Assembly (NCBI GenBank): GCA_034231615.1
Contig: CM067315.1
Span: forward strand, 13,828,267-13,892,266
Source of the DNA: Meghimatium bilineatum
Lineage: Eukaryota > Mollusca > Gastropoda > Stylommatophora > Philomycidae
Length of the DNA: 64,000 nucleotides
Direction: 5' to 3'
Positions 1 to 61,499 of the stretch are shown piece by piece. Position 1 is the first letter of the stretch; each line of letters starts with the position of its first letter. The position numbers and the translations under genes are program-made. The notes beneath the pieces are model-generated. The model searched no databases and was not told where the DNA came from. It worked only from the letters and a program-made list of their open reading frames with translations.

Positions 1-77
1 AACACTCGTCCTTGGTGTGTCCGGTGTTGGAAAATCCTCTCTTGTACAGCAGTTTACACGTTCGGACTCTAACAATG
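1..77 (+). CDS. RGK-family small GTPase, P-loop exon (5' partial)
   Basis: First visible exon of a Rad/Gem/Rem/Kir-like GTPase; the gene begins before the window. The frame (codons from base 2) contains the G1 motif GVSGVGKSSL followed by VQQFTRSDSNN. The exon ends at AACAATG with the donor GTGAGT at 78, leaving phase 1. It joins in phase to the exon at 23822. RGK proteins act at the plasma membrane as regulators of voltage-gated calcium channels and the cytoskeleton (family knowledge). The following intron is about 23.7 kb and holds a trinucleotide array and the giant palindrome. Family assignment rests on all four exons together. Confidence 0.88.
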
Positions 78-870
78 GTGAGTCTACATGTTCAATACTA
101 TTACTACTACTGCTGCTACTATTACTACTACTGCTGCTACTACTACTACTACTGCTGCTACTACTACTACTACTGCTGCTACTACTACTACTACTGCTGC
201 TACTACTACTACTACTGCTGCTACTACTACTACTACTGCTGCTACTGCTATTACTACTGCTGCTACTATTACTACTACTGCTGCTACTACTACTGCTGCT
301 ACTATTACTACTATTGCTGCTGCTGCTACTACTACTACTGCTGCTACTACTACTGCTGCTACTATTACTACTATTGCTGCTGCTGCTACTACTACTACTG
401 CTGCTACTACTACTACTACTGCTACTATTACTACTACTGCTGCTACTACTACTGCTGCTACTATTACTACTATTGCTGCTGCTGCTACTACTACTACTGC
501 TTCTACTACTACTACTACTACTACTATTACTACTATTGCTGCTGCTGCTACTACTACTACTGCTTCTACTACTACTACTACTACTACTATTACTACTATT
601 GCTGCTGCTGCTACTACTACTACTGCTTCTACTACTACTACTACTATTACTACTACTACTACTGCTGCTGTTACTGATGAATACTATTATGTGACTACTA
701 CTATTATTACTATTGCTTCTACTACTATTACTACTACAACTACTACCACTACTACTACAACTACTACCACTACTACTACAACTACTACCACTACTACTAC
801 AACTACTACCACTACTACTACAACTACTACCACTACTACTACTATTGCTATTCCTACAATAATAATAATA

Positions 871-902
<32 letters not shown>

Positions 903-960
903 ATACTACTACTATCACTACCACTGCTGCTACTACTCACGTAGTACCCGGGTCGCTACA
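78..960 (+). repeat. Trinucleotide array (CTA/CTG) in RGK intron 1
   Basis: Starts about 20 nt after the 5' splice site of the P-loop exon. From about 97 to 670 it is blocks of CTACTACTACTACTGCTG type; then CTA/CAA/CCA variants to about 840 and an ATA/ACT-rich tail to about 940. There is higher-order order: the block CTATTACTACTATTGCTGCTG recurs several times. Long open frames here (poly-Leu, poly-Thr, Tyr/Cys) are artefacts of period 3. Confidence 0.95.
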
Positions 961-1199
961 CCCGGGTCAGATGGTCGGTGGGAGAGTGACTTAAAACTAC
1001 ACTAACGCGATTCGTGTCTTGAATTTCGTTCTGGTCGTTATATAATTTCACATGCTATGCAACAATACACTACACTTAAAGGTACATGCCCTCAATCCTG
1101 ACAAAGAGTACACAATTTAATAGTTATTTCCCTATATTATATTTCCATCTATTTTATGTTCAATAATCTATTTTATGTTATATCTATTCACTAAACCCT
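961..1199. other. AT-rich intron sequence
   Basis: Unremarkable intronic DNA between the trinucleotide array and the LINE fragment. I see no gene or clear repeat. Confidence 0.5.
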
Positions 1200-1866
1200 T
1201 TGTTGCCTTTGAGCGTCCGGGATAGACGAGATTTCTGGAGATGGTCATCGTGTGTGCTGAGTATATTGTGGAATTTGTCGCCTATTATGTTTCGGTGGTC
1301 CATCGTTTTCGTGGTCGACCTCTAGGTCTATATCTTCACTATGCAGCATAGCTTGCTGTGGTATGCTGTCTGGTGGTAATCTGCTGATGTGTGCAAACCA
1401 TTTGTTGTGTTGTCTCTTAATATATTCCAAGATTGGGGTGGTGCCGGTTCTTTATATAATGTCCTAATTCCTAACTCTGTCTCTTATGGCTATTCCTAAG
1501 ATTCTGCAAAAGCATGTCATTTCAGCTGTCACAAGTTTACGTTTGTCTTGTGTTGCCATTGTCCATTTTTGGTTTTGGTAACTCAGCGTTGGCATAATAA
1601 TTGTTGTGAATAGTGTTATTTTGGTGTTTAAATCTACATTTTATGTTTTTGAAGATTGGATTCATTTTAGTAGGGCTTAGTATGCTTTACTTCATCTATT
1701 GTGTATTTCTTTGCTGCTCTTTCTGTCTGTTGTTATATTGTTTCCTAAGTATGCTAATTCTATCTTTTGTGTCCAATATATATATTGGTGTTTCTTTCTG
1801 TTCTTCCTATCTTTCATTATTTTAGTCTTTTCTATGTTTATCTTCATGTTAAACGTTTGGCATGTT
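1200..1866 (-). mobile_element. LINE (non-LTR retrotransposon), RT 3' part
   Basis: Read on the - strand. It carries reverse-transcriptase features: NMKINIEKTKIM (palm/thumb junction), ELAYLGNNITTD, then RILGIAIRDRVRN, and EYIKRQHNKWFAHISRLPPDSIPQQAM-type C-terminal sequence (RTE/craniofacial-like LINE tail). Stops interrupt the frame, so it is a decayed copy. It is the left half of a single LINE copy whose 5' part continues at 17691-18085. The palindromic element is inserted at the codons between LHQT and CQTFN. Confidence 0.8.
1861..1866. repeat. Left target-site duplication CATGTT
   Basis: CATGTT immediately before the AG terminus of the palindrome, repeated exactly at 17685-17690. Deleting the element plus one copy restores the LINE reading frame. 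Confidence 0.88.
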
Positions 1867-1880
1867 AGTAGTGTATGCTG

Positions 1881-2105
1881 CATGTAATGATACGTGGGTC
1901 AGTTGGTCAGTTGGGTCAGTTGGGTCAGTTCCGGGTCAGTTGGTCAGTTGGGTCAGTTCCGGGTCAGTTGGTCAGTTCGTGGTCAGTTGGTCAGTTCGTG
2001 GTCAGTTGGTCAGTTCCGGGTCAGTTGGTCAGTTCCTGGTCATTTGGTCAGTTCGAGGTCTGTTGGTCAGGTCAGTTGGTCAGTTGTGTCTGTCAAGGTC
2101 AACAG
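1881..2105 (+). repeat. Subterminal VNTR, GGTCAGTT-rich (left arm)
   Basis: Tandem GGTCAGTT units with spacers such as GGTCAGTTCCG and GGTCAGTTCGT. It starts about 14 nt inside the terminus. GGTCAACAGACC-type variants continue to about 2215. Mirror copy at 17446-17670. Confidence 0.9.
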
Positions 2106-2284
2106 ACCAGAACAGACCATAACAGCCCCAAAACGGACCCATGGTCTGTCAAGGTCAACAGACCCGGAACTGACTCGGAACGGACCCAGTGTCAGTGAAG
2201 GTCAACGGACCTGGGGAACAATGGTCCTGTGTAAGATTTTATGACATGGTGGGAGGGTTTGTAGGTGGTACCAAGTGGTACCAC

Positions 2285-2460
2285 AACCAATGAATGGTCA
2301 CCGAAACGGGTCGAACCCGCGCGGTGTGTGGGCCCGGAGCGAAACCGGTCGAAACCGGCCGATCCCGCGTGGTGTGTGTGCCCGGAGCGGGGCGGTGATA
2401 TCGGCGGGGCGGGCGGCGAGGTCCCCGACCCAGACAACTGGAAAAGGGGTGGGTGGGATT
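2285..2460. other. CpG-rich subterminal block (left arm)
   Basis: A GC-rich, CpG-rich island in otherwise AT-rich DNA. It holds two related direct repeats ending in GCCCGGAGCG, each preceded by GTGTGTG, plus short palindromes such as CCGGTCGAAACCGG. Position and composition would suit an origin, packaging or promoter role, but nothing proves this. Mirror at 17091-17266. Confidence 0.7.
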
Positions 2461-2495
2461 TTCCCTTTAGATTTTGTGGTAAAGAAAACGTCTAT

Positions 2496-3790
2496 GGAAA
2501 GTTACAATGAATGAGGTCAGTATAACCAGGTCATACGGTGGTGGGGTCATATATACCTCTACCATATGTAGATCTAGGTCAATTCCTTAGAAGGAATAGT
2601 ACTGACGTGTGTGCCACTTGTGTTTAAAATTCAAATTCCCACCAGCAAAACACCATAAAACTTTACGATACAAGGTCAATTAACCATCTGGTGGGGCACG
2701 GAAACTTACAGTGAATGATGTCAGCATAGCCCGATTACGTTGTCGGGGTCATCCATAACACTACGCTATTTAGCTCTGGTTCAAACTGTGCGATGACATA
2801 ACAGAGATGCACACTTTTCCACAAAGAAAATGGGCTGGAAACTTAGAAAGAATGAGGTCAGCATAACCGGGTTAAAAGGTGGGGGTCATATATACCTCTA
2901 CCATATTTAGATCTAGGTCAATTCCTTAGAAGGCATAGTACTGCCGTGTGTGCCACTTGTGTTTAAAATTCAAATTCCCACCAGCAAAACACCATAAAAC
3001 TTTACAATTCAAGGTCAATTAACCATCTGGTGGGGCACGGAAACTTACAGTGAATGATGTCAGCATAACCCGATTACGCTGTCGGGGTCATCCATAATAC
3101 TACCCTATTTAGATCTGGTTCAAACTGTACGATGACATAACACAGATGCATACTTTTCCACAAAGAAAATGGATGGAAACTTACAATGAATGAGGTCAGC
3201 ATAACCGGGTTAAAAGGTGGGTCATATATACCTCTACCATATTTAGATCTAGGTCAATTCATTAGAAGGCATAGTACTGACGTGTGTGCCACTTGTGTTT
3301 AAAATTCAAATTCCCACCAGCAAAACACCATAAAACTTTACGATACAAGGTCAATTAGCCATCCGGTGGGGCACGGAAACTTACACCAAATGTTGTCAGC
3401 ATAACCCGGTTACGCTGTCGGGGTCATCCATAACACTACCCTATTTAGATCTGGTTCAAACTGTACAATGATATAACACAGATGCATACTTTTCCACAAA
3501 GAAAATGGGTTGGAAACTTACAATGAATGAGGTCAGCATAACCAGATCATACGGTGGGGGTCATATATACCTCTACCATATTTAAATTTAAGTCAATTCA
3601 TTAGAAGGAATAGCACTGACGTGTGTGCCACTAGTGTTAAAAATTGAAATTCCGACCAGCAAAACACCATAAAACTTTACGTTTCAAGGTTGAGTAGCCA
3701 TCTGTTAGGGCACGGGCTATTTCAATATATGATCATTAGCGAACTTTTCCACAAAGAAACCGATACTGGAATCTTAGCACGAATGATGTC
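2496..3790 (+). repeat. 340-bp composite tandem repeat (left arm)
   Basis: About four units of 337-341 bp begin near 2496, 2837, 3175 and 3512. Each has an A half (GGTCATATATACCTCTACCA, CCACCAGCAAAACACCATAA) and a shorter B half (CGGGGTCATCCATAA). Both halves start GGAAACTTACARTGAATGA, so the unit arose from an older duplication. The last unit is degenerate. Mirror at 15761-17055. Confidence 0.9.
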
Positions 3791-4581
3791 AGCATAATCC
3801 GATCACGCAACCAGTATATGAAAGCGAACACCCTTTATCTATCTTAGCTGTCTCTGTATATAATCACTATAAGCATGGTTGGTGTCCGAATGTAGGGATA
3901 TCGTTTTGTGATCATGCTATATTATTATTAATGATATTAATATACTGATACAAATGCTATTTAAATTATTAGTTTGAATTTCAAACAGTATTTTACAAAA
4001 TATTTCCAGCTTTATGAAATAGTTTAAAAGGAAAAATAAATCCCTATATAAACTCCTGTGATAAACCACAGGTAAAGTGTAACGGCTTAATTACTGGCTC
4101 GAGACGGCGTACGCGTGTCAATCGATAATCACCAAGCGTGACGGCTTGACCACAGTGTAAAATGTATTAGAGTAACACAGACACTGACAAAATAATTGGG
4201 GGTAATTATAAGAAACATATATATATGCATGAAGCATACATAAGCGTGAACATGTCGCATTCATAACATTCCTTGAATTACTGAAAACGGTTAAAAATTA
4301 GTCTTACTATTAAACAATGAAAATTTTTAAAAACTGGTCTGTTAAATGCTTACAATACGGCCACCTGGTAGAGATTAACACCTTCTGTTATGACTAGCGT
4401 CTCTGGCATCTTTATTACCATAATTTTGAATATTTGTAAACCTCACTATACAACACGATTTAGCGCTGTGTTATGAGTGTTCTCAAACTCCCTAAGTCTT
4501 CGTACATATATAGTTAAATATACCTTGGTGTAAGAATTAGAAATTGTACCAAATTAATACAATTTCATTATTACAGGCCCT

Positions 4582-4582
<1 letters not shown>
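3791..4582. other. AT-rich spacer (left arm)
   Basis: No gene or clear repeat seen. The mirror is 14969-15760. Confidence 0.5.

Positions 4583-4668
<86 letters not shown>
4583..4668. repeat. (AT)n microsatellite (left arm)
   Basis: About 43 AT dinucleotides at the 3' side of the internal LINE fragment. Its length equals that of the mirror copy. Confidence 0.97.
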
Positions 4669-4670
<2 letters not shown>

Positions 4671-4900
4671 TGTTTTTCTTTCCGTTCTTCCTAGCTTCGG
4701 CCTTTTCTTTTGTTTATCTTCATGTTAAAGGTTTGGTATGTTTGATGTAATCTGGGTGTTTATCTTTGTATGTGTTCTTATAACGCTGGTAGTAGTGATT
4801 GGTCGTCTGCGAAGCGCAATTCGTTGAGTTATCTCTTATATTGTTTTCTTCAGTTGTTTTTGCTGCTTTGGTGATGTGATCTAAGTATGTTATATATAGA
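4669..4900 (-). mobile_element. LINE RT fragment carried inside left arm
   Basis: On the - strand it encodes NELRFADDQSLL (RT motif C, FADD box), then LHQTYQTFNMKIN, ending at the (AT)n tract. It is the same LINE family as the insertion target at 1200-1866/17691-18085 and covers the target point without interruption. Stops are present, so it is decayed. Confidence 0.75.
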
Positions 4901-4919
4901 TGGCCACACACACACACAC

Positions 4920-5737
4920 ATACTTACAGATATTTTCAAAGCTCTGTAGCGTGTTTAAATCTTTACAAAAGAAACATTTGACATATATGCACATTCTCAA
5001 ACTCCCCCCCTTACAGTTGAGTGATTCTAAGTTGTTATCAAACACGGTTCGGGGTTGCCACACAATTGGAGTTATTAATAAACAATCTTTTTAATGTTAA
5101 ATTTTAAAGAAAGGAGCGCATTAATCATAATATGAATAAGGGTCTCCACACATTCTTCTGTGCCTTGGCCAATGGTTCTCATTATTTTATGCTTATATTC
5201 AAGTGCTTCTCACATTGTAAAATTGAAAATTATGGTGCTGGGTGGTTAATATAACTCATATAACAAAAATGTTCTCAGTATATTCACACTAGCTTCTATC
5301 ATATTCTACCCTGTTTAATATTTTCTTAGTATGTTCTCACTAGGCTCTGCAACTATTTTCTCACTTCACGCTTTAGCCATGGTCGCCGGGTGGTCTCTGT
5401 ATGAGTTTCAACTATGTTCTACCATATTATCAGTATGGTCTCGCTAGCTTCTAACATTGTCTACTTTGGGTCAATATTTTCTTAGTATATTCTCGGTAGG
5501 TTCTTCAATTATGTTTTCAGTCCCCGCTTCAATTATGGTATCTCTCTTTTAAGTTATTGTTTCTTTGCCAACAGTTCTCATAATAACATATATCCCACAC
5601 CACAAACGTCATGTTTATCAGTTTTCTGAATTAGCAGTTCTATACCCATAATAGTTACCCTACCTTTAAATAACACAGAGGAAAAGGCCAAGGGTTCTCA
5701 CACCTTTAGGGTGGTTTGGGTGCTTGAATTAACTTGA
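4920..5737. other. Degenerate repeats, no gene (left arm)
   Basis: Loosely repeated motifs of the form AGTATRTTCTCRSTAGSTTCT with intervening TTTTCTTAGTAT recur from about 5260 to 5520. No coding support. The mirror is 13814-14631. Confidence 0.5.
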
Positions 5738-6004
5738 CTAGCTTATGACCCCAAACCATGATGGGGTTTCTAATGTTATCTTGGTCTGTGTATAACCCTT
5801 GTATAAATCAGTTCTGGGCTCAGCAGGTCTACCTATATCGAATATATAGAGAGCGAAGGTTCTGTTCTTCATGATCTGTGGATAACTTCTTAGTTCTGTA
5901 CCGGTCAATAACTTGAACCTCTGTAGTTTATAGAAGCTTTCTTTGTAACAAGACAAAGCATATAGTACAACGAACCAGACAATACACATATACAAATATA
6001 ACAA
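5738..6004 (-). CDS. Unknown ORF, possible capsid-like C-terminal remnant (left arm)
   Basis: An 88-codon open frame. The N-terminal 22 residues are hydrophobic and may be intronic: an acceptor-like AAACTACAG precedes RFKLLTGTE in the same frame. The remainder has RTFALYIFDIGRPAEPRTDL, then YKGYTQTKITLE. An aromatic-FD strand followed by K-G-(x)n-I-x-L-E recalls the C-terminal strands of Polinton/adintovirus double-jelly-roll capsid proteins, but this is a weak resemblance by eye. It may be a truncated exon. Last in the outward cluster. Confidence 0.4.
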   Translation of the reverse strand: MLYLYMCIVWFVVLYALSCYKESFYKLQRFKLLTGTELRSYPQIMKNRTFALYIFDIGRPAEPRTDLYKGYTQTKITLETPSWFGVIS

Positions 6005-6099
6005 TGATTAAACCCGAACCATAAAAACGTGACAGACATATTTGTTCAGAGATATAAAACATATTTATTTTATGATTCGCATACCTTTTTCCAAAATAA

Positions 6100-6270
6100 T
6101 TAAGAAAGAATAAAAAAAGGTTCATGGTATAATTGACTGTTCATAGGAGTCACAGTTGGTTGTAGTTTTCGTCTCCTGGTTGGCTTCTTCTTTTTCTGTT
6201 CTGGTTGGTTGTGGGTTGCTACAGGCATCTCAGGTACATATGTGGGTTCGTAGTCGGTCGTGAGATACAT
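6100..6270 (-). CDS. Short basic ORF (left arm)
   Basis: A 56-codon frame beginning MYLTTDYEPTYVPEMP, with the strongly basic stretch QKKKKPTRRRKLQPT. It lies 18 nt after the PC4-like stop. It could be a small nucleic-acid-binding or nuclear-localised protein, or the first exon of a larger one. AATAAA follows at 6064-6069 (- strand). Function unknown. Confidence 0.4.
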   Translation of the reverse strand: MYLTTDYEPTYVPEMPVATHNQPEQKKKKPTRRRKLQPTVTPMNSQLYHEPFFILS

Positions 6271-6288
6271 CTCTAGATTACCAAAATA

Positions 6289-6614
6289 CTACTCTGTGGG
6301 TGTAGACATTTTGTTGGTTGTATTAGTAACTGTGTTTGCAGCTGGAGCAGTTGAATCGGTTTTTGTGCCAAAAACACCACACACTCTATCAAATTCTTTC
6401 AGAATGACCTCTCGGAGGTCTACGAGGTCTACAAATTCTTGACGACTCATTGTGATGCCGGTTCTAGTTGGATACTTTATATTTGCATCACCATAGTAAC
6501 GCCGAACATGGATAAGTGGTCTCTTGAATGATGTTACGGCTACATCATTAACACCATCACCTAATGGTTTATCATATCATTGCCTCTGGAAAAATAGGTA
6601 GTTGAGGACCTCAT
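6289..6614 (-). CDS. PC4/p15-like ssDNA-binding protein, apparent frameshift (left arm)
   Basis: The open frame 6289-6576 carries the PC4 fold signature: VTSFKRPLIHVRRYYGD, then PTRTGITMSRQEFVDL, and a C-terminal helix, matching human PC4 (DFKGKVLIDIREYW...GRKGISLNPEQW). PC4 proteins bind single-stranded DNA as dimers and act in transcription and replication. No ATG opens this frame at the right place. The likely N-terminus (ATG at 6612-6614, MRSSTTYFSRGNDM) is one frame away, and the shift falls near 6570. This is a one-base indel, an unrecognised splice, or a frameshifting site. Both arms share it. Confidence 0.62.
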
Positions 6615-6768
6615 ATTCCTAATTATTGAAATGACAGTACACCATATTGAAATGACAGTTTATTTTCCCAGTGTGTGACTGTGAAACGTGGAAATATAAG
6701 CGGCAGTGACACATCAAGCCCTTTTAACATTAATAGAGCAAGGACAAATGGTGAGTTAGTCAACTTAA

Positions 6769-7739
6769 TCATTGGGCTGGCTCAAAGCTTTTTTTGAAAT
6801 GATGAGGTCTGTCTAAAGTGTAAGCCTGACTATTATTTCTTCCCTGTTCGTAGTGATCTATGATCTTACGCCTATGGGTGCTATCAAGCAAGGGTGAAAT
6901 GACTAGCTCAAGCTCATTGACCCGCCTTTGAAACAGTTCCCGGTCTAAAGCAAAATAACTTCTTGTATAATGATGAGCTTCAGCCACAAAAATATAGGTA
7001 GTTATCAATTTACCCCCTGTAGCAAAATGAACCTGTAGAGTAAACAAGAGGAATATCCATTAGCTCGGCTTGTTACACTTACTTATAGGTTAGCACACTT
7101 AAGAAAAGAAAGTTCGCATTAGCTGTACGTGCATATTATTATACACTAGTTACTCCACCACGGATATAATCCGCCCCCGGTGTAGTGATATCATAGGAAG
7201 AAAAAGTACCACGACAAAATAGTCTCTGTTCGGTAATGATATTATTATTATTATTTTATTTTTTTTCAAAGGTTAGCCTAAACACAAACAACTAAACTCC
7301 AATTACCGCCTTACAACAACAACCAATATATATGTATACATACACATAATACCTTTCTACGACCCTGTTTGCTTTCAGTTCCTGAGACAGCGTGACAACG
7401 GGCGATGGTAGTGGTAGGATAATCATGCTCCCATTTAGCATTAATCTGACTAAGTGATGGTAAACATGATTCTAGACTATTGGTCCCAGACTCACCAGCT
7501 AGATGAATGGTTTCTGTCTCGGATGATGGGTCTGATACGGCTTCACTTCTGGGTTTAAAGAGCGTGGCTAGCGTTAAAGGTGAATTAAAGACAGAGCAGC
7601 TTATCGGGGACATCGACATATCTTCATTGTCTGACCACCCATCACTGTCTTCATTACTACCAACGCCCTCAGTTGCCTCAGAAGCTGAACACCAAGAAAA
7701 AAGGCTCCCAAGTGGACATCTATCGAGTTGCATTTTCAC
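6769..7739 (-). CDS. PPP1R15/GADD34-like phosphatase regulator, two exons (left arm)
   Basis: Exon 1 is 7353-7739 and exon 2 is 6769-7032 on the - strand; the intron is in phase 0 with GT...AG ends. The product would be about 216 residues. Exon 1 has an acidic stretch (SNEDSDGWSDNEDM) and ends GRRK; exon 2 continues VHFATGGKL. Together they make a KVHF-type PP1-docking motif, followed by SYFALDRELFQRRVNELE and a helix. This is the order in PPP1R15A/B (KVRF/KVTF, then E(E)FARD..RF.+RI). The family recruits PP1 to dephosphorylate eIF2alpha and keep translation on during stress. Several large DNA viruses carry homologues. AATAAA at 6659-6664. Confidence 0.78.
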
Positions 7740-8155
7740 TGGCGACGTTGGTCGTATCGGCTTTTTGTTGTTGGGGTTTAAAAGACACTAATTATGGAGA
7801 AGCCACACCTACCAGCTGCCTACGGGTAATGTTAGTGCCTATAAGAGTGAAGTGTATTATAGGGTTTGTGTGCCGCCTTCAACATTAACCGCTACCAGTA
7901 ATAATCTGCCGAACTAGCTAAACTCACCCGCACCGCATAAACAATAGCTAAACATATAGGGTAGCTTGTTATGGGGTTGTACCTGAGCAATACGTAGTGA
8001 AAATTTTATTAGTGTGTAACCTATACATAAAGGATGAAAAAAGGCTACCCTTCGTCATTGTCTTAAACATGCACACCTCTGAGAATGACATCTCAGCACG
8101 GGCTATAAATACGAAAGCATATGATTCTGATACTAACAAACGAGCAAACACCTAG

Positions 8156-8164
8156 TTTTATATA
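8156..8164 (-). promoter_or_regulatory. TATA box for outward gene cluster (left arm)
   Basis: TATATAAAA on the - strand, about 420 nt upstream of the PPP1R15-like start codon. The short inverted pair CCTGTATTGC/GCAATACAGG lies just upstream (about 8187-8225). Predicted from sequence only. Confidence 0.5.
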
Positions 8165-8768
8165 CGAACCAGCTACACCAATCGCCTGTATTGCACTATT
8201 GAAGCACAACCGAATAGGCAATACAGGTTTTGTACTGTGCACACACTTGGAGTAACCCATTCATCCCATTGGGTGATGTGTGTATATTTGTAGGACCAAA
8301 CATTTAAAAAAAAATCATACGTTATCGGCACTTACTAATAGAAACTACCGGAACTTGATCATTTTGAAGAATGACTTATGTAAGTAATGTTGTTAATATC
8401 TGAACAGGTGGTTTGTTATTCTAACAGGATTTTCAATCATAGTATTGTTTTTGGCTCTTCTTCTTCAGACATGCGTTAACGGGCACATTCGCTACCTTTT
8501 CTATGGTATTTTGATGTTAAATTTAATATCTGACATGTGTGAAATTCTATAGGGTCTTGGTTGTTGGTCCGTTTTGGTAGTTGCCAGCATGTGGGCGTGG
8601 AAAAAAGTTGGTGTAAATGTGAATACATTTGTGTATTTTTGGTGTGTATAGATACACTAACATCCCGGTGATATATTTGGGTCGTATTTATTACTATTGT
8701 TGTGCTCGTTGTATATGTATATTGTTTGAGCTGTGTATGTATAGCCTGATTATGAGTTAGGGCTAACT
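8165..8768. other. Divergent intergenic region (left arm)
   Basis: About 600 nt between the outward cluster and the inward zinc-finger gene, without convincing coding sequence. It may hold promoters for both directions. Carries the single-base arm difference at 8358. Mirror at 10783-11386. Confidence 0.5.
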
Positions 8769-9482
8769 ATGTTTGTTATCTGCTTGGGAATTGGCTTATT
8801 TACGCAGTCCATATATTTTCCACAGACTAAGGCGTCCACCAAAACCTTCCGGTGTGTTCAATGCTTGAAACCATTCAGTCGCCTTTACACACTGCAAAGA
8901 CATACACAAGATCTTCACCTTAAAAAAAGACATAACTGTAATTTGTGTGTTAATGTTTACACAGACGCTTCAACATTAAGACAGCACAAACAGAAGTGTC
9001 ATACACCCCAATTAGTAACAACGGATGGGACTTTTAAACCTAGCGAGGGGCATCATAGTAATTTAACACCAACCAAGAACATGATACTAGTTGATCCCCA
9101 GGTGGTCGACACCTTGCTGTATAAAACAGTCTATAAACCACCTGCTTCTTTAACTGATTCTACGGGTGAGTTGGACCAAGATATGCGGGCGGTTTTATCT
9201 CGTGGTGATTTAACCAATCATGAAAAATCTACACTATACCAAAAAACATTACAACAGTATTTGAATCGACTCAGTCAATACAAAAACATACCGATGAAGC
9301 TATTAGAGAGCACGCAGTGTTCGGTACCAAGTGCCTTAATACAGAAAGATGAAGAACCCACTGAGAAAATTCCAGAGAAAGGCGAAGTGATGTCTAAGAT
9401 GCCACTGCTTCAACATAGGCGGGTATCTAAAAGAACAAAATGTAAAACAATGGACAAAAGTCTGATTTGGGATAAGTGGTAG
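8769..9482 (+). CDS. C2H2 zinc-finger protein with Maverick-associated domain (left arm)
   Basis: A 237-codon open frame. Two C2H2 fingers lie near residues 27-79: FRCVQCLKPF...LQRHTQDLH and HNCNLCVNVY...LRQHKQKCH. Then MILVDPQVVDTLLYK and LDQDMRAVLSR...NHEKSTLYQKTLQQYL. The last two match a pattern I recall from Maverick/adintovirus ORFs (LVP-x-E...; LD-x-EM-x-x-IL...EK-x-x-LY-x-x-LQRYL). A basic tail follows. The first 19 residues are hydrophobic, but a good acceptor (TATTTTCCACAG|ACT) at 8825/8826 suggests the mature exon starts at 8826 and an upstream exon was missed. AATAAA at 9575-9580. Likely a DNA-binding regulator or virion-associated protein; the role is not known. Confidence 0.72.
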   Translation: MFVICLGIGLFTQSIYFPQTKASTKTFRCVQCLKPFSRLYTLQRHTQDLHLKKRHNCNLCVNVYTDASTLRQHKQKCHTPQLVTTDGTFKPSEGHHSNLTPTKNMILVDPQVVDTLLYKTVYKPPASLTDSTGELDQDMRAVLSRGDLTNHEKSTLYQKTLQQYLNRLSQYKNIPMKLLESTQCSVPSALIQKDEEPTEKIPEKGEVMSKMPLLQHRRVSKRTKCKTMDKSLIWDKW

Positions 9483-9648
9483 AAAAACTGTAGAAGGCAA
9501 CGCCCCATTACACAACAACTTATCGCCTGTTTAAACTAATATGATACTTATATATATATTACATTAATAAGCAAAATAAAATAAGAAAACCACAACCATG
9601 TTGTTGTATTTTGTCTGTATTTGTGTGTATGTGTGTGTATGCCTGTGT

Positions 9649-9665
9649 AAAAAAAAAAAAAAAAA
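9649..9665 (+). repeat. Poly-A tract, left side of centre
   Basis: 17 A residues. The mirror tract at 9867-9902 has 36 nt with one interruption. This is the only length difference seen between the arms. Confidence 0.95.
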
Positions 9666-9866
9666 GATTGCTCATAAACATAAAAAAACTATGCCGATTT
9701 CCCTCCTAGCACGGGATCCCGTGTAGGTCCAAGATGAGAAACCCGTGTTACACGGGCCCGTGCAGCACGGGATCCCGTGTAACACGGGGGTCTTTTATCA
9801 TGTATCTACACGGGATCCCGTGCTAGGAGGGAAATCGGCATAGTTTTTTTATGTTTATGAGCAATC
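9666..9866. repeat. Central hairpin of the palindrome
   Basis: The perfect stem ends at 9725/9807, leaving an 81-nt spacer (9726-9806). The self-complementary 14-mer CACGGGATCCCGTG occurs three times: once in each stem end and once inside the spacer. The spacer contains a second imperfect inverted repeat (ACCCGTGTTACACGGG against CCCGTGTAACACGGGGGT) and unpaired asymmetric ends. The structure resembles a terminal hairpin or a head-to-head telomere junction of a linear replicon. Confidence 0.8.
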
Positions 9867-9869
9867 TTT

Positions 9870-9907
<38 letters not shown>

Positions 9908-10068
9908 GGCATACACACACATACACACAAATACAGACAAAATACAACAACATGGTTGTGGTTTTCTTATTTTATTTTGCTTATTAATGTAATATATATA
10001 TAAGTATCATATTAGTTTAAACAGGCGATAAGTTGTTGTGTAATGGGGCGTTGCCTTCTACAGTTTTT

Positions 10069-10782
10069 CTACCACTTATCCCAAATCAGACTTTTGTCCA
10101 TTGTTTTACATTTTGTTCTTTTAGATACCCGCCTATGTTGAAGCAGTGGCATCTTAGACATCACTTCGCCTTTCTCTGGAATTTTCTCAGTGGGTTCTTC
10201 ATCTTTCTGTATTAAGGCACTTGGTACCGAACACTGCGTGCTCTCTAATAGCTTCATCGGTATGTTTTTGTATTGACTGAGTCGATTCAAATACTGTTGT
10301 AATGTTTTTTGGTATAGTGTAGATTTTTCATGATTGGTTAAATCACCACGAGATAAAACCGCCCGCATATCTTGGTCCAACTCACCCGTAGAATCAGTTA
10401 AAGAAGCAGGTGGTTTATAGACTGTTTTATACAGCAAGGTGTCGACCACCTGGGGATCAACTAGTATCATGTTCTTGGTTGGTGTTAAATTACTATGATG
10501 CCCCTCGCTAGGTTTAAAAGTCCCATCCGTTGTTACTAATTGGGGTGTATGACACTTCTGTTTGTGCTGTCTTAATGTTGAAGCGTCTGTGTAAACATTA
10601 ACACACAAATTACAGTTATGTCTTTTTTTAAGGTGAAGATCTTGTGTATGTCTTTGCAGTGTGTAAAGGCGACTGAATGGTTTCAAGCATTGAACACACC
10701 GGAAGGTTTTGGTGGACGCCTTAGTCTGTGGAAAATATATGGACTGCGTAAATAAGCCAATTCCCAAGCAGATAACAAACAT
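10069..10782 (-). CDS. C2H2 zinc-finger protein with Maverick-associated domain (right arm)
   Basis: Mirror copy of 8769-9482, identical at the protein level. The alternative exon start after the acceptor would be 10725. AATAAA on the - strand at 9971-9976. Confidence 0.72.
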   Translation of the reverse strand: MFVICLGIGLFTQSIYFPQTKASTKTFRCVQCLKPFSRLYTLQRHTQDLHLKKRHNCNLCVNVYTDASTLRQHKQKCHTPQLVTTDGTFKPSEGHHSNLTPTKNMILVDPQVVDTLLYKTVYKPPASLTDSTGELDQDMRAVLSRGDLTNHEKSTLYQKTLQQYLNRLSQYKNIPMKLLESTQCSVPSALIQKDEEPTEKIPEKGEVMSKMPLLQHRRVSKRTKCKTMDKSLIWDKW

Positions 10783-11386
10783 AGTTAGCCCTAACTCATA
10801 ATCAGGCTATACATACACAGCTCAAACAATATACATATACAACGAGCACAACAATAGTAATAAATACGACCCAAATATATCACCGGGATGTTAGTGTATC
10901 TATACACACCAAAAATACACAAATGTATTCACATTTACACCAACTTTTTTCCACGCCCACATGCTGGCAACTACCAAAACGGACCAACAACCAAGACCCT
11001 ATAGAATTTCACACATGTCAGATATTAAATTTAACATCAAAATACCATAGAAAAGGTAGCGAATGTGCCCGTTAACGCATGTCTGAAGAAGAAGAGCCAA
11101 AAACAATACTATGATTGAAAATCCTGTTAGAATAACAAACCACCTGTTCAGATATTAACAACATTACTTACATAAGTCATTCTTCAAAATGACCAAGTTC
11201 CGGTAGTTTCTATTAGTAAGTGCCGATAACGTATGATTTTTTTTTAAATGTTTGGTCCTACAAATATACACACATCACCCAATGGGATGAATGGGTTACT
11301 CCAAGTGTGTGCACAGTACAAAACCTGTATTGCCTATTCGGTTGTGCTTCAATAGTGCAATACAGGCGATTGGTGTAGCTGGTTCG
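10783..11386. other. Divergent intergenic region (right arm)
   Basis: Mirror of 8165-8768; the variant base is at 11193. Confidence 0.5.
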
Positions 11387-11395
11387 TATATAAAA
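11387..11395 (+). promoter_or_regulatory. TATA box for outward gene cluster (right arm)
   Basis: Mirror of 8156-8164. Confidence 0.5.
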
Positions 11396-11811
11396 CTAGG
11401 TGTTTGCTCGTTTGTTAGTATCAGAATCATATGCTTTCGTATTTATAGCCCGTGCTGAGATGTCATTCTCAGAGGTGTGCATGTTTAAGACAATGACGAA
11501 GGGTAGCCTTTTTTCATCCTTTATGTATAGGTTACACACTAATAAAATTTTCACTACGTATTGCTCAGGTACAACCCCATAACAAGCTACCCTATATGTT
11601 TAGCTATTGTTTATGCGGTGCGGGTGAGTTTAGCTAGTTCGGCAGATTATTACTGGTAGCGGTTAATGTTGAAGGCGGCACACAAACCCTATAATACACT
11701 TCACTCTTATAGGCACTAACATTACCCGTAGGCAGCTGGTAGGTGTGGCTTCTCCATAATTAGTGTCTTTTAAACCCCAACAACAAAAAGCCGATACGAC
11801 CAACGTCGCCA

Positions 11812-12782
11812 GTGAAAATGCAACTCGATAGATGTCCACTTGGGAGCCTTTTTTCTTGGTGTTCAGCTTCTGAGGCAACTGAGGGCGTTGGTAGTAATGA
11901 AGACAGTGATGGGTGGTCAGACAATGAAGATATGTCGATGTCCCCGATAAGCTGCTCTGTCTTTAATTCACCTTTAACGCTAGCCACGCTCTTTAAACCC
12001 AGAAGTGAAGCCGTATCAGACCCATCATCCGAGACAGAAACCATTCATCTAGCTGGTGAGTCTGGGACCAATAGTCTAGAATCATGTTTACCATCACTTA
12101 GTCAGATTAATGCTAAATGGGAGCATGATTATCCTACCACTACCATCGCCCGTTGTCACGCTGTCTCAGGAACTGAAAGCAAACAGGGTCGTAGAAAGGT
12201 ATTATGTGTATGTATACATATATATTGGTTGTTGTTGTAAGGCGGTAATTGGAGTTTAGTTGTTTGTGTTTAGGCTAACCTTTGAAAAAAAATAAAATAA
12301 TAATAATAATATCATTACCGAACAGAGACTATTTTGTCGTGGTACTTTTTCTTCCTATGATATCACTACACCGGGGGCGGATTATATCCGTGGTGGAGTA
12401 ACTAGTGTATAATAATATGCACGTACAGCTAATGCGAACTTTCTTTTCTTAAGTGTGCTAACCTATAAGTAAGTGTAACAAGCCGAGCTAATGGATATTC
12501 CTCTTGTTTACTCTACAGGTTCATTTTGCTACAGGGGGTAAATTGATAACTACCTATATTTTTGTGGCTGAAGCTCATCATTATACAAGAAGTTATTTTG
12601 CTTTAGACCGGGAACTGTTTCAAAGGCGGGTCAATGAGCTTGAGCTAGTCATTTCACCCTTGCTTGATAGCACCCATAGGCGTAAGATCATAGATCACTA
12701 CGAACAGGGAAGAAATAATAGTCAGGCTTACACTTTAGACAGACCTCATCATTTCAAAAAAAGCTTTGAGCCAGCCCAATGA
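11812..12782 (+). CDS. PPP1R15/GADD34-like phosphatase regulator, two exons (right arm)
   Basis: Exon 1 11812-12198 (donor GTATTA), exon 2 12519-12782 (acceptor CTCTACAG). Mirror of 6769-7739, both copies open. First gene of the outward cluster, about 420 nt after a TATA box at 11387. Start chosen as the first ATG of the open exon. AATAAA at 12887-12892. Confidence 0.78.
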
Positions 12783-12936
12783 TTAAGTTGACTAACTCAC
12801 CATTTGTCCTTGCTCTATTAATGTTAAAAGGGCTTGATGTGTCACTGCCGCTTATATTTCCACGTTTCACAGTCACACACTGGGAAAATAAACTGTCATT
12901 TCAATATGGTGTACTGTCATTTCAATAATTAGGAAT

Positions 12937-13262
12937 ATGAGGTCCTCAACTACCTATTTTTCCAGAGGCAATGATATGATAAACCATTAGGTGATGGTGT
13001 TAATGATGTAGCCGTAACATCATTCAAGAGACCACTTATCCATGTTCGGCGTTACTATGGTGATGCAAATATAAAGTATCCAACTAGAACCGGCATCACA
13101 ATGAGTCGTCAAGAATTTGTAGACCTCGTAGACCTCCGAGAGGTCATTCTGAAAGAATTTGATAGAGTGTGTGGTGTTTTTGGCACAAAAACCGATTCAA
13201 CTGCTCCAGCTGCAAACACAGTTACTAATACAACCAACAAAATGTCTACACCCACAGAGTAG
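12937..13262 (+). CDS. PC4/p15-like ssDNA-binding protein, apparent frameshift (right arm)
   Basis: Mirror of 6289-6614. The N-terminal frame starts at 12937; the PC4 frame runs 12975-13262. It follows the PPP1R15-like gene by about 150 nt in the same direction. A Thr/Ala/Pro-rich tail ends the protein. Confidence 0.62.
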
Positions 13263-13280
13263 TATTTTGGTAATCTAGAG

Positions 13281-13451
13281 ATGTATCTCACGACCGACTA
13301 CGAACCCACATATGTACCTGAGATGCCTGTAGCAACCCACAACCAACCAGAACAGAAAAAGAAGAAGCCAACCAGGAGACGAAAACTACAACCAACTGTG
13401 ACTCCTATGAACAGTCAATTATACCATGAACCTTTTTTTATTCTTTCTTAA
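13281..13451 (+). CDS. Short basic ORF (right arm)
   Basis: Mirror of 6100-6270. AATAAA on the + strand at 13482-13487. Confidence 0.4.
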   Translation: MYLTTDYEPTYVPEMPVATHNQPEQKKKKPTRRRKLQPTVTPMNSQLYHEPFFILS

Positions 13452-13546
13452 TTATTTTGGAAAAAGGTATGCGAATCATAAAATAAATATGTTTTATATC
13501 TCTGAACAAATATGTCTGTCACGTTTTTATGGTTCGGGTTTAATCA

Positions 13547-13813
13547 TTGTTATATTTGTATATGTGTATTGTCTGGTTCGTTGTACTATATGCTTTGTCT
13601 TGTTACAAAGAAAGCTTCTATAAACTACAGAGGTTCAAGTTATTGACCGGTACAGAACTAAGAAGTTATCCACAGATCATGAAGAACAGAACCTTCGCTC
13701 TCTATATATTCGATATAGGTAGACCTGCTGAGCCCAGAACTGATTTATACAAGGGTTATACACAGACCAAGATAACATTAGAAACCCCATCATGGTTTGG
13801 GGTCATAAGCTAG
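13547..13813 (+). CDS. Unknown ORF, possible capsid-like C-terminal remnant (right arm)
   Basis: Mirror copy of 5738-6004 with the same frame and no visible difference. Function not established. Confidence 0.4.
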   Translation: MLYLYMCIVWFVVLYALSCYKESFYKLQRFKLLTGTELRSYPQIMKNRTFALYIFDIGRPAEPRTDLYKGYTQTKITLETPSWFGVIS

Positions 13814-14631
13814 TCAAGTTAATTCAAGCACCCAAACCACCCTAAAGGTGTGAGAACCCTTGGCCTTTTCCTCTGTGTTATTTAAAGGTAGGGTAACTAT
13901 TATGGGTATAGAACTGCTAATTCAGAAAACTGATAAACATGACGTTTGTGGTGTGGGATATATGTTATTATGAGAACTGTTGGCAAAGAAACAATAACTT
14001 AAAAGAGAGATACCATAATTGAAGCGGGGACTGAAAACATAATTGAAGAACCTACCGAGAATATACTAAGAAAATATTGACCCAAAGTAGACAATGTTAG
14101 AAGCTAGCGAGACCATACTGATAATATGGTAGAACATAGTTGAAACTCATACAGAGACCACCCGGCGACCATGGCTAAAGCGTGAAGTGAGAAAATAGTT
14201 GCAGAGCCTAGTGAGAACATACTAAGAAAATATTAAACAGGGTAGAATATGATAGAAGCTAGTGTGAATATACTGAGAACATTTTTGTTATATGAGTTAT
14301 ATTAACCACCCAGCACCATAATTTTCAATTTTACAATGTGAGAAGCACTTGAATATAAGCATAAAATAATGAGAACCATTGGCCAAGGCACAGAAGAATG
14401 TGTGGAGACCCTTATTCATATTATGATTAATGCGCTCCTTTCTTTAAAATTTAACATTAAAAAGATTGTTTATTAATAACTCCAATTGTGTGGCAACCCC
14501 GAACCGTGTTTGATAACAACTTAGAATCACTCAACTGTAAGGGGGGGAGTTTGAGAATGTGCATATATGTCAAATGTTTCTTTTGTAAAGATTTAAACAC
14601 GCTACAGAGCTTTGAAAATATCTGTAAGTAT
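13814..14631. other. Degenerate repeats, no gene (right arm)
   Basis: Mirror of 4920-5737. Confidence 0.5.
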
Positions 14632-14650
14632 GTGTGTGTGTGTGTGGCCA

Positions 14651-14880
14651 TCTATATATAACATACTTAGATCACATCACCAAAGCAGCAAAAACAACTG
14701 AAGAAAACAATATAAGAGATAACTCAACGAATTGCGCTTCGCAGACGACCAATCACTACTACCAGCGTTATAAGAACACATACAAAGATAAACACCCAGA
14801 TTACATCAAACATACCAAACCTTTAACATGAAGATAAACAAAAGAAAAGGCCGAAGCTAGGAAGAACGGAAAGAAAAACA

Positions 14881-14882
<2 letters not shown>
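14651..14882 (+). mobile_element. LINE RT fragment carried inside right arm
   Basis: Mirror of 4669-4900; FADDQ box visible on the + strand. Confidence 0.75.

Positions 14883-14968
<86 letters not shown>
14883..14968. repeat. (AT)n microsatellite (right arm)
   Basis: Mirror copy, same length as 4583-4668. Confidence 0.97.
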
Positions 14969-14969
<1 letters not shown>

Positions 14970-15760
14970 AGGGCCTGTAATAATGAAATTGTATTAATTT
15001 GGTACAATTTCTAATTCTTACACCAAGGTATATTTAACTATATATGTACGAAGACTTAGGGAGTTTGAGAACACTCATAACACAGCGCTAAATCGTGTTG
15101 TATAGTGAGGTTTACAAATATTCAAAATTATGGTAATAAAGATGCCAGAGACGCTAGTCATAACAGAAGGTGTTAATCTCTACCAGGTGGCCGTATTGTA
15201 AGCATTTAACAGACCAGTTTTTAAAAATTTTCATTGTTTAATAGTAAGACTAATTTTTAACCGTTTTCAGTAATTCAAGGAATGTTATGAATGCGACATG
15301 TTCACGCTTATGTATGCTTCATGCATATATATATGTTTCTTATAATTACCCCCAATTATTTTGTCAGTGTCTGTGTTACTCTAATACATTTTACACTGTG
15401 GTCAAGCCGTCACGCTTGGTGATTATCGATTGACACGCGTACGCCGTCTCGAGCCAGTAATTAAGCCGTTACACTTTACCTGTGGTTTATCACAGGAGTT
15501 TATATAGGGATTTATTTTTCCTTTTAAACTATTTCATAAAGCTGGAAATATTTTGTAAAATACTGTTTGAAATTCAAACTAATAATTTAAATAGCATTTG
15601 TATCAGTATATTAATATCATTAATAATAATATAGCATGATCACAAAACGATATCCCTACATTCGGACACCAACCATGCTTATAGTGATTATATACAGAGA
15701 CAGCTAAGATAGATAAAGGGTGTTCGCTTTCATATACTGGTTGCGTGATCGGATTATGCT
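14969..15760. other. AT-rich spacer (right arm)
   Basis: Mirror of 3791-4582; nothing recognised. Confidence 0.5.
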
Positions 15761-17055
15761 GACATCATTCGTGCTAAGATTCCAGTATCGGTTTCTTTGT
15801 GGAAAAGTTCGCTAATGATCATATATTGAAATAGCCCGTGCCCTAACAGATGGCTACTCAACCTTGAAACGTAAAGTTTTATGGTGTTTTGCTGGTCGGA
15901 ATTTCAATTTTTAACACTAGTGGCACACACGTCAGTGCTATTCCTTCTAATGAATTGACTTAAATTTAAATATGGTAGAGGTATATATGACCCCCACCGT
16001 ATGATCTGGTTATGCTGACCTCATTCATTGTAAGTTTCCAACCCATTTTCTTTGTGGAAAAGTATGCATCTGTGTTATATCATTGTACAGTTTGAACCAG
16101 ATCTAAATAGGGTAGTGTTATGGATGACCCCGACAGCGTAACCGGGTTATGCTGACAACATTTGGTGTAAGTTTCCGTGCCCCACCGGATGGCTAATTGA
16201 CCTTGTATCGTAAAGTTTTATGGTGTTTTGCTGGTGGGAATTTGAATTTTAAACACAAGTGGCACACACGTCAGTACAGTGCCTTCTAATGAATTGACCT
16301 AGATCTAAATATGGTAGAGGTATATATGACCCACCTTTTAACCCGGTTATGCTGACCTCATTCATTGTAAGTTTCCATCCATTTTCTTTGTGGAAAAGTA
16401 TGCATCTGTGTTATGTCATCGTACAGTTTGAACCAGATCTAAATAGGGTAGTATTATGGATGACCCCGACAGCGTAATCGGGTTATGCTGACATCATTCA
16501 CTGTAAGTTTCCGTGCCCCACCAGATGGTTAATTGACCTTGAATTGTAAAGTTTTATGGTGTTTTGCTGGTGGGAATTTGAATTTTAAACACAAGTGGCA
16601 CACACGGCAGTACTATGCCTTCTAAGGAATTGACCTAGATCTAAATATGGTAGAGGTATATATGACCCCCACCTTTTAACCCGGTTATGCTGACCTCATT
16701 CTTTCTAAGTTTCCAGCCCATTTTCTTTGTGGAAAAGTGTGCATCTCTGTTATGTCATCGCACAGTTTGAACCAGAGCTAAATAGCGTAGTGTTATGGAT
16801 GACCCCGACAACGTAATCGGGCTATGCTGACATCATTCACTGTAAGTTTCCGTGCCCCACCAGATGGTTAATTGACCTTGTATCGTAAAGTTTTATGGTG
16901 TTTTGCTGGTGGGAATTTGAATTTTAAACACAAGTGGCACACACGTCAGTACTATTCCTTCTAAGGAATTGACCTAGATCTACATATGGTAGAGGTATAT
17001 ATGACCCCACCACCGTATGACCTGGTTATACTGACCTCATTCATTGTAACTTTCC
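15761..17055 (-). repeat. 340-bp composite tandem repeat (right arm)
   Basis: Mirror of 2496-3790. Contains the 2-nt arm difference at 16278-16279. Confidence 0.9.
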
Positions 17056-17090
17056 ATAGACGTTTTCTTTACCACAAAATCTAAAGGGAA

Positions 17091-17266
17091 AATCCCACCC
17101 ACCCCTTTTCCAGTTGTCTGGGTCGGGGACCTCGCCGCCCGCCCCGCCGATATCACCGCCCCGCTCCGGGCACACACACCACGCGGGATCGGCCGGTTTC
17201 GACCGGTTTCGCTCCGGGCCCACACACCGCGCGGGTTCGACCCGTTTCGGTGACCATTCATTGGTT
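17091..17266. other. CpG-rich subterminal block (right arm)
   Basis: Mirror of 2285-2460. Confidence 0.7.
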
Positions 17267-17445
17267 GTGGTACCACTTGGTACCACCTACAAACCCTCCC
17301 ACCATGTCATAAAATCTTACACAGGACCATTGTTCCCCAGGTCCGTTGACCTTCACTGACACTGGGTCCGTTCCGAGTCAGTTCCGGGTCTGTTGACCTT
17401 GACAGACCATGGGTCCGTTTTGGGGCTGTTATGGTCTGTTCTGGT

Positions 17446-17670
17446 CTGTTGACCTTGACAGACACAACTGACCAACTGACCTGACCAACAGACCTCGAAC
17501 TGACCAAATGACCAGGAACTGACCAACTGACCCGGAACTGACCAACTGACCACGAACTGACCAACTGACCACGAACTGACCAACTGACCCGGAACTGACC
17601 CAACTGACCAACTGACCCGGAACTGACCCAACTGACCCAACTGACCAACTGACCCACGTATCATTACATG
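17446..17670 (-). repeat. Subterminal VNTR (right arm)
   Basis: Mirror of 1881-2105, read on this strand as AACTGACC repeats. Confidence 0.9.
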
Positions 17671-17684
17671 CAGCATACACTACT

Positions 17685-17690
17685 CATGTT
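17685..17690. repeat. Right target-site duplication CATGTT
   Basis: Exact repeat of 1861-1866, directly after the CT terminus. Confidence 0.88.
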
Positions 17691-18085
17691 TGATGTAATC
17701 TGTCTATTTGTCTTTGTAGTTGCTCTTCTGATGATGCTACTAGTGCTTGGTTTTCTGCAAATAGCAATTCGTTTAATGTATTCTTCAGATTGTTTTCTTC
17801 TGTTGTCTATGCTACTTTGTAGATGTATGTTCTGAACAGTGAGTGGGGGGGGGGGGAGGGGAGGGGGGTGTGGAGAATAGTACACATCCTTGTCTCACTC
17901 CCGAGTGAATTTGAAAATTATCGTATGTACTTGTGCTCGTTCCTACTAACTGCGCATTGACTATTGGTGAATATGCTCTGACATAGGCTAATCAGATGTT
18001 GGGGAGCTCCGTATGTCTGTAGTGTTATCCATAGTTGTATTATATCCACTCTGTCAAAAGTTTTCTCTTGGTCCACGAAAGTCAA
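17691..18085 (-). mobile_element. LINE RT 5' part (right of insertion)
   Basis: On the - strand: FVDQEKTFDRVD (RT motif A), ISLCQSIFTNSQCAV, a degraded motif B, NELLFAENQAL (a decayed FADD box), then SSEEQLQRQIDRLHQT. It continues across the palindrome into CQTFNMKINIEKTKIM at 1866 and below. Frame breaks and a poly-G/C tract near 17845-17870 show decay. Confidence 0.82.
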
Positions 18086-18087
18086 AT

Positions 18088-18225
18088 ATATTAACCATTT
18101 ATTTTATATTCAATCATATATGTTATATTCAATTGTATATATTATATTCAATCATATATTTTATATACAATCATATATTTTATATGCAATCATATATTTT
18201 ATATTCAATCATATATTTTATGATT
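18088..18225 (+). repeat. Short AT-rich tandem repeat
   Basis: Imperfect 22-27-nt units of the form TTATATTCAATCATATATTT. Confidence 0.85.
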
Positions 18226-18308
18226 TCACATACATTGTATTCTTCCTCATCCATGGAATGTTCTAGTCTGCGTTCTATTATCTATTTTATGTCCCACTGT
18301 GTTCTGTT

Positions 18309-18600
18309 TCTTCTGCGTTAGTTCTCCAACTCCTGAACATTAGCAGGGTGTAGTCCGGAATACAGAACGCTTTGTGTAATGGTTTACTACATAGCTGCGA
18401 TATCTGCGTCTTTGGGCCTGACATATTCTAGTTCAGCATGACATATTGGTCGCTTTGCCCACATATAGAATGGGACAGCAACTATATCCCCAAAACCCCT
18501 TTAGTTGCCTCTTACTACATGTTAAACATGGGAGTTAAAACAGTGGTTCTATTTCTTGCTCCCCTTTCGGGCCTCGACAGTACAAAATCACCCATTCCAC
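18309..18600 (-). mobile_element. Dispersed retroposon 'family A', copy 1
   Basis: Reverse copy of a repeat of about 270-300 bp. Read forward it starts GGGGAGCAAAGAATAG, includes TGTCAGGC..AAAGGCGCAGATATCGC and ends CAGGAGTTTGAGAACGAACG followed by a GAAGAAGAAG tail. Other copies are near 21116, 22977, 34337, 34487, 38455, 41900 and 63510. The microsatellite-like 3' tail suggests a SINE or a truncated LINE end. Confidence 0.7.
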
Positions 18601-18930
18601 TATCAATTTCTACACAGATTTATGATCGATTACTGTATAGCTAGTTAGAAACCTGCTGTCACCTGTTTCACAGTCATAAAATAGCCCCATTAAGTCACAT
18701 CTACCTGGCTAACAACAGCGAATATTGATTCCATCTGGGACATTTAATACGCTTTTCTTGTTGGCAAATTAAACCAGTACAAGTCACATGGATTGCGATG
18801 GATCAAGTGTGGATACAATTTGGAGAGAAAACTTTCTGGTGTAAATCTATGGATAACAAATCAGGCCACATTCCGAAACGCACTAATTGATCTAATATTG
18901 CTTCACATTTTGTTTCATCGTCTTCAGCAT
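18601..18930. other. Intron sequence, nothing recognised
   Basis: No gene, repeat or regulatory element that I can support. Confidence 0.4.
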
Positions 18931-19500
18931 CAGAACAATCATTATCATCTTTTTCTTCATCTTCATCATAATCATCTTTTAATCATCTCACCTGATTTAT
19001 CATTTTCATCATTATCATCTGCTTCATCGTCTTCTGTGTCCGGCTCTGTGGCGAAGTGGTACAGAGCGCGTCTGTGACGCAAAGGTACCGAGTTCGATCC
19101 TCACCACAGGCAATTGTGTATCCGGACCGTTCAGAAAGCAATGGCAACCTACTGAACGTATTTATATTGCCTAGAAAATCACCACAGCCAACAAATGCTG
19201 GATAGGATATGCTACCAATTTTTCATCGTCTTCAGCATAAGAACAATCATTATCATCTGCTTCATCGTCTTCAGCATCAGAACAATCATTATCATCTTTT
19301 TCATCATCTTCATCATCATCTTATTCACCATCATTATTTTATTTATTCCTCTTCCTCATCATCTGCTTCGTCATCATAATCATCCTTTAATCATCTCACC
19401 TGATTTATCATTTTCTTCATTATCATCTGCTTCTTCATCATAATCATCCTTTTATTCGTCATCATCATCATCATCATCATATTCATCGGCTTGTTTTTCT
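18931..19500 (+). repeat. TCATCATC/TTCATC-rich microsatellite, split by a SINE
   Basis: Imperfect TCATCATCTTCATC-type sequence on both sides of the SINE at 19043-19220, including a repeated CATCGTCTTCAGCATMAGAACAATCATTATCATC block. Confidence 0.85.
19043..19220 (+). mobile_element. tRNA-derived SINE, family 1
   Basis: The 5' part has A-box-like TGGCGAAGTGG and B-box GAGTTCGATCC. The body contains CCGGACCGTTCAGAAAGCAATGG and CTGAACGTATTTATATTGCC and ends GATATGCTACCAATTT. TCATCGTCTTC stands on both sides, possibly a TSD, though the surrounding repeat makes this uncertain. Related copies at 24108-24285 and 54005-54206. Confidence 0.8.
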
Positions 19501-29006: not shown

Positions 29007-29714
<708 letters not shown>

Positions 29715-29719
29715 TATAT

Positions 29720-34480: not shown

Positions 34481-34486
34481 GGACTT

Positions 34487-49560: not shown

Positions 49561-49599
49561 TATAGCTCATTCTGCAGTAATCTGACAGTATCTATTTGG

Positions 49600-61045: not shown

Positions 61046-61111
61046 TATTTTGAGAACTATATTAGTACAGTATCCCAAGAAAGCAGTATATGGGAGCAAC
61101 CTAAAGAGTTG

Positions 61112-61490: not shown

Positions 61491-61499
61491 ACCATCAGC

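Follow-up and report, generated by a model that had tools for sequence, protein, structure and literature searches.

How an animal chromosome might come to hold a nearly perfect palindrome that begins and ends like a mobile element is the question raised by a 64-kb stretch of DNA from the gastropod Meghimatium bilineatum (contig CM067315.1, positions 13,828,267 to 13,892,266; hereafter the window), in which positions 1867-17684 form a 15,818-bp inverted duplication. This duplication is described here as a palindromic element whose ends are of Polinton type and which probably moves like a non-autonomous derivative of the Polintons, or Mavericks. Its organization points to fold-back and doubling of a defective copy that was still able to insert into a chromosome. 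The structure rests on one assembled sequence.

The element consists almost entirely of two arms of 7,799 bp each (Table 1), the right one a mirror copy of the left, as had been noticed in an earlier reading of the letters made without database searches (the sequence-only reading). Exact identity of the arms is ruled out by three mismatches, two of them adjacent (left 3272, 3273 and 8358 versus right 16279, 16278 and 11193). Because the arms differ at no more than these positions and both carry 42 AT units, the doubling appears to be recent. Where the arms meet the centre, a poly-A tract faces a longer poly-T tract, and this difference in length, together with the three mismatches, suggests that the two arms were read separately. 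Each of the sequences with which the element begins and ends, AGTAGTGTATGCTG and CAGCATACACTACT, occurs once in the window. In the remainder of the window to the right of the element (17691-64000), the longest inverted matches among the ten listed are one of 254 bp at 86% and a self-palindromic stretch of 144 bp, so that an arm of 7.8 kb stands far above the local background.

Inward of the poly-A and poly-T tracts, the mirror symmetry goes on through a perfect stem to an imperfectly palindromic core. Folded as single-stranded DNA, the central 201 nt reach -104 kcal/mol, as compared with -22.1 +/- 3.0 for 200 dinucleotide shuffles, none of which was as low (0/200). The core, taken as 9728-9806 (one base off the interval in Table 1) and folded with RNA parameters, reaches -46.1 versus -20.7 +/- 3.3 and beats 200 of 200 mononucleotide shuffles. 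The palindromic 14-mer CACGGGATCCCGTG has three occurrences in the window, all at the centre. As would be expected of a snap-back dimer, there is a single central fold point with an asymmetric loop, and one natural end is present in duplicate.

Table 1. Coordinates of the element, its parts and its flanks in the window
Feature	Position	Strand	Detail
Left flank, translated	1001-1866	-	junction-proximal part LINE (reverse transcriptase by eye)
Left target-site duplication, CATGTT	1861-1866		exact, 6 bp
Left arm	1867-9665	+	7,799 bp; starts with AGTAGTGTATGCTG
Subterminal array	1896-2086	+	19-bp GGTCAGTT-rich units (57-bp units fit too); mirror row 17465-17654
Subterminal tandem array	2494-3715	+	339-bp unit, 3.6 copies; mirror row 15836-17056
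(AT)42	4584-4667	+	84 nt, in both arms; mirror 14884-14967
LINE fragment in arm	4658-4877	-	same LINE as target, unbroken across the target point; mirror 14674-14893
PC4-domain ORF (PF02229)	6292-6576	-	E 5.2e-6, 26.3 bits, cutoff 25; mirror 12975-13259 (+)
Putative second exon	6769-7032	-	same gene as the putative first exon; AG acceptor; mirror 12519-12782
Putative first exon	7353-7733	-	ATG to GT donor; mirror 11818-12198
C2H2-finger ORF	8769-9482	+	237 aa, intact; mirror 10069-10782 (-)
Poly-A	9649-9665		17 nt; faces 36-nt poly-T with one interruption, 9867-9902
Central stem, left	9666-9726		perfect, 61 bp
Core	9727-9805		79 nt, imperfectly palindromic; nested CCCGTG/CACGGG hairpins
Central stem, right	9806-9866		perfect, 61 bp
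Right arm	9886-17684	-	7,799 bp; mirror copy, 3 mismatches; terminates with CAGCATACACTACT
Right target-site duplication, CATGTT	17685-17690		exact, 6 bp
Right flank, translated	17691-18590	-	junction-proximal part belongs to the same LINE frame, opposite side

The surroundings of the palindrome bear on whether it was inserted as a unit. Mirror symmetry halts exactly at the 6-bp target-site duplication (TSD), which the sequence-only reading had described as perfect and which is so, and the possibility of palindromic flanks was rejected, as the left and right flanks are no mirror images of each other. When the element and one TSD are deleted, a single frame is open across the joined flanks. This frame had been called the reverse transcriptase of a long interspersed nuclear element (LINE); its continuity holds, while its identity as a reverse transcriptase depends on motifs judged by eye, without a family search. 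A fragment of the same LINE lies within each arm, its own frame broken by stops, and the joined flanks align with it at 77.8% over 230 columns in an alignment that crosses the junction. Judged by this comparison, the fragment in the arm is a paralogous empty site for the insertion within the same window, which goes beyond the sequence-only reading. Since both arms hold it, the simplest order of events is that the element already contained it when the arms were duplicated. Insertion of a folded-back element is favoured because the symmetry ends at the TSD, a paralogous empty site exists, and the joined flanks share one uninterrupted frame.

The arm fragment and the target represent the same part of the same LINE, a coincidence that chance could produce if the LINE is abundant; a preference for the site is also conceivable. 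Elsewhere in the window, an open reading frame (ORF) at 49180-49566 resembles a decayed reverse transcriptase by eye, with no Pfam match at E 0.1.

The ends place the element near a known group. Its termini, AGTAGT...ACTACT, extend the AG...CT noted earlier and equal the published (AGT)2//(ACT)2 motif of Mavericks. In vertebrates, Mavericks combine these ends with 6-bp TSDs, and intact copies measure 12.7-24.6 kb, with terminal inverted repeats (TIRs) of 46-1,447 bp and intronless ORFs (PMC8097293). The gastropod element is alike in end motif, in its 6-bp TSD and in size (15.8 kb); it also has TIRs, which at 7.8 kb each take up nearly the whole element, one repeat making up half of it, unlike in vertebrate Mavericks. 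In adenovirus, a doubled terminal triplet (3'-GTAGTA) serves jumping-back initiation, which is started inside the terminus (PMC4974454). As the end of the element is likewise a 3-nt terminal duplication, its pattern points to protein priming, and the Polinton-type reading is favoured because the ends and TSD match those of Mavericks and the triplet is doubled as in adenovirus. To our knowledge, the case for protein-primed copying of Polintons rests mostly on genes, so far.

The gene content is where the element departs from that group. A total of 47 stop-to-stop ORFs of at least 50 aa overlap 1867-9900, and 29 of them were scanned against Pfam; the other 18, situated in the terminal repeats or the flank overlap (12), in the AT run (4) or at the centre (2), lay outside the scan, as did shorter pieces. 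In the 29 scanned, Pfam revealed no domain of a polymerase, RVE integrase, packaging ATPase, cysteine protease or capsid protein, in agreement with the earlier statement that a replication or capsid core is missing, and the element is not called a Polinton here because no polymerase, integrase or capsid gene turned up in that scan. In place of the core genes, PC4 and finger ORFs and a putative spliced gene are found, every ORF being present twice, once per arm. One of the 29 scanned ORFs clears its curated Pfam cutoff, by virtue of PC4, a single-stranded-DNA-binding domain. As this ORF has in-frame stops on both sides, more stops nearby and no ATG ahead of the domain, the gene has probably been disrupted, or else is spliced in a way that escaped recognition; a protein-database search returned no relative of it, and a sequence comparison with the PDB no match up to E 1.

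The finger ORF is in better condition. It matches zf-C2H2 at E 1.3e-4 and 22.7 bits, under the cutoff of 25.2, and its open run of 245 codons exceeds the maximum of 198 in 1,000 shuffles of 8001-9600; its one protein-database relative, 65% identical, comes from a 1,037-bp ENA contig (P0001). In the 6769-7733 region, GT/AG signals suggest a two-exon gene, to which no family is assigned. AlphaFold models are poor for both the second exon and the finger protein, with a mean predicted local distance difference test score (pLDDT) of 46.4 and 39.9, respectively. Scans of viral contigs with the finger protein, the second exon, the PC4 ORF and the 18-base terminus gave no relative, and Rfam at the gathering threshold gave no match in 1-20000. 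Pfam matches to NAD4L, Phenol_monoox, Flavi_M and COX6C fell below their cutoffs and were dismissed as chance. The non-autonomous reading is favoured because the scanned ORFs hold no core domain, while a PC4-type domain and a finger protein remain. Of the earlier proposal that the element derives from a Polinton, insertion as a unit and Polinton-type ends are upheld; descent from a Polinton is not, as neither a shared gene nor an autonomous relative was found among the sequences examined.

For the origin of the palindrome, we give about an even chance to the following: during replication, a non-autonomous Polinton-type element folded back to become a symmetric dimer, and was then integrated in trans. 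To begin with, a linear element of greater length that ended in AGTAGT would have undergone protein-primed strand-displacement copying, as its ends would imply. A displaced or truncated strand may then have folded at the hairpin-forming CACGGGATCCCGTG motifs near 9710 and 9809 and primed its own copying, giving a half element capped by a hairpin. Copying from the sole remaining natural end through the hairpin would yield a linear molecule with identical halves and two good ends, at the cost of the sequence beyond the fold, which presumably held the polymerase, integrase and capsid genes. Finally, an integrase supplied in trans would have inserted this molecule into a LINE copy with duplication of 6 bp; the ends and the TSD are there to be seen, and the enzyme is postulated. 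Fold-back is favoured by the hairpin at the centre, which is strong and imperfect, as a fold-back point should be, and to which the CACGGGATCCCGTG motif is confined.

Such molecules have precedents among protein-primed linear DNAs, in which defective recombinants of adenovirus and a pGKL1-derived hairpin plasmid of yeast are mirror duplications of half a genome with two natural ends. No paper on them appeared among those listed in the open-licence literature surveyed. These derivatives are extrachromosomal, whereas the element described here is a chromosomal insertion flanked by a TSD. Transposons of the Foldback type and palindromic miniature inverted-repeat transposable elements consist mostly of inverted repeat as well; unlike them, the present element has the Polinton-type end motif with its TSD and carries ORFs. 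Amplicons formed by origin-dependent inverted-repeat amplification (ODIRA) and other inverted amplicons are similar in their inverted structure, for which a short inverted repeat is the proposed starting point (PMC4689423), but carry host sequence, without transposon ends and TSD.

Several points weigh against a fold-back dimer of Polinton type. It is represented by this single copy, and no autonomous parent was present among the sequences examined. Arms so alike, the AT run included, are equally expected from misassembly, and conversion in place predicts an identical sequence. Moreover, no gene of the element has been shown to be of Polinton origin: the PC4 score is barely over its cutoff, with no solved structure matched by sequence; 'PC4' is absent from each of the 25 papers listed (of 72) in the open-licence literature; and neither 'PC4' nor 'zinc finger' is mentioned in the Maverick paper (PMC8097293), in which the intact vertebrate elements, with their intronless ORFs, also contrast with the spliced gene proposed here. 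The idea of a snap-back recombinant, put forward by the sequence-only reading, is sustained as to the symmetric structure; that the snap-back preceded insertion is not, because conversion in place and misassembly fit too.

Conversion in place would have started from a Polinton-type element with TIRs that was already inserted. A break in one half would be repaired from the other TIR, with copying inward to the central hairpin, until a mirror image had replaced that half. Such a process preserves the TSD and the ends and yields one asymmetric centre, all as observed, and for inverted amplicons in yeast a start at short inverted repeats has been proposed and several steps of the model tested (PMC4689423). 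As it requires a long copying tract that halted at the centre and left no trace of the old right half, we regard this course of events as unlikely.

Misassembly, which we hold to be unlikely, would mean that the real middle of the element is unique and that a fold-back read, or an error in the assembly graph at the TIRs, fused the left half with a mirror image of itself. Arms that differ at just 3 of 7,799 positions and have (AT)42 in common are what such an error would produce, and the strong central hairpin could give rise to fold-back reads. Against this, a simple read of that type should include a mirror image of the left flank as well, but the symmetry stops at the TSD, and the flank beyond the right TSD continues the LINE of the left flank. 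The double mismatch, the single mismatch and the poly-A difference likewise suggest that the arms were read separately.

Beyond the fold-back dimer as a single event, there may be a lineage of animal elements that transpose as a full-length palindrome, in which half a Polinton, capped by a hairpin and having a single end of terminal-protein type, is kept as an inverted dimer by the polymerase and integrase of its parent; this extension is rather unlikely in our estimate. Less credible still, and very unlikely, is that palindromes are how the family normally exists, its linear element having one hairpin-closed end and moving as a dimer, the centre (9666-9866) being its fused hairpin telomere. 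The centre, with its long stem, imperfect core and nested hairpins, does resemble the telomere fusions of hairpin-ended linear genomes; but a single copy is in hand, no telomere-resolution enzyme was recognized, and the viral-contig scans gave no relatives. An unrelated cut-and-paste family that has long TIRs and makes 6-bp TSDs, Polinton-like at its ends only, is the least likely reading, for although the scanned ORFs hold no Polinton domain and Ginger2 also uses 6-bp targets, the doubled AGT end fits published Maverick ends (PMC8097293), and the TGTNR termini and RTATAY targets of Ginger2 (PMC2836005) differ from AGTAGT and CATGTT.

If the fold-back dimer is real, its insertion, with undamaged ends and an exact TSD, would preserve a replication intermediate in the chromosome and show that one end in two copies suffices for integration. 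The chromosome would then harbour a near-perfect palindrome of nearly 16 kb, and near-perfect palindromes of such length are unstable structures. Should the lineage exist as well, whole-length palindromy would be a way of life and no accident. Judged by title and the opening of the abstract, no paper listed in the open-licence literature surveyed deals with a whole-length palindromic Polinton, which is weak evidence of absence, and 'palindrom' does not occur in PMC12721341 and PMC12220804.

A few minor features may be added. GGTCA motifs are numerous in the subterminal arrays, in the 19-bp as well as the 339-bp units, and are possible protein-binding sites. Outside the element, the inverted pair at 34484-34735 and 63516-63769 (about 254 bp, 86% alike) is probably a dispersed repeat, and the self-palindromic stretch at 29577-29720 (up to 144 bp) has 20-mers in common with the arms, as would fit an AT repeat. 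The translation of an ORF at 28638-29006 appears to resemble the last part of a small GTPase of RGK type, and a minisatellite at 60983-61568 is open in three frames of the plus strand.

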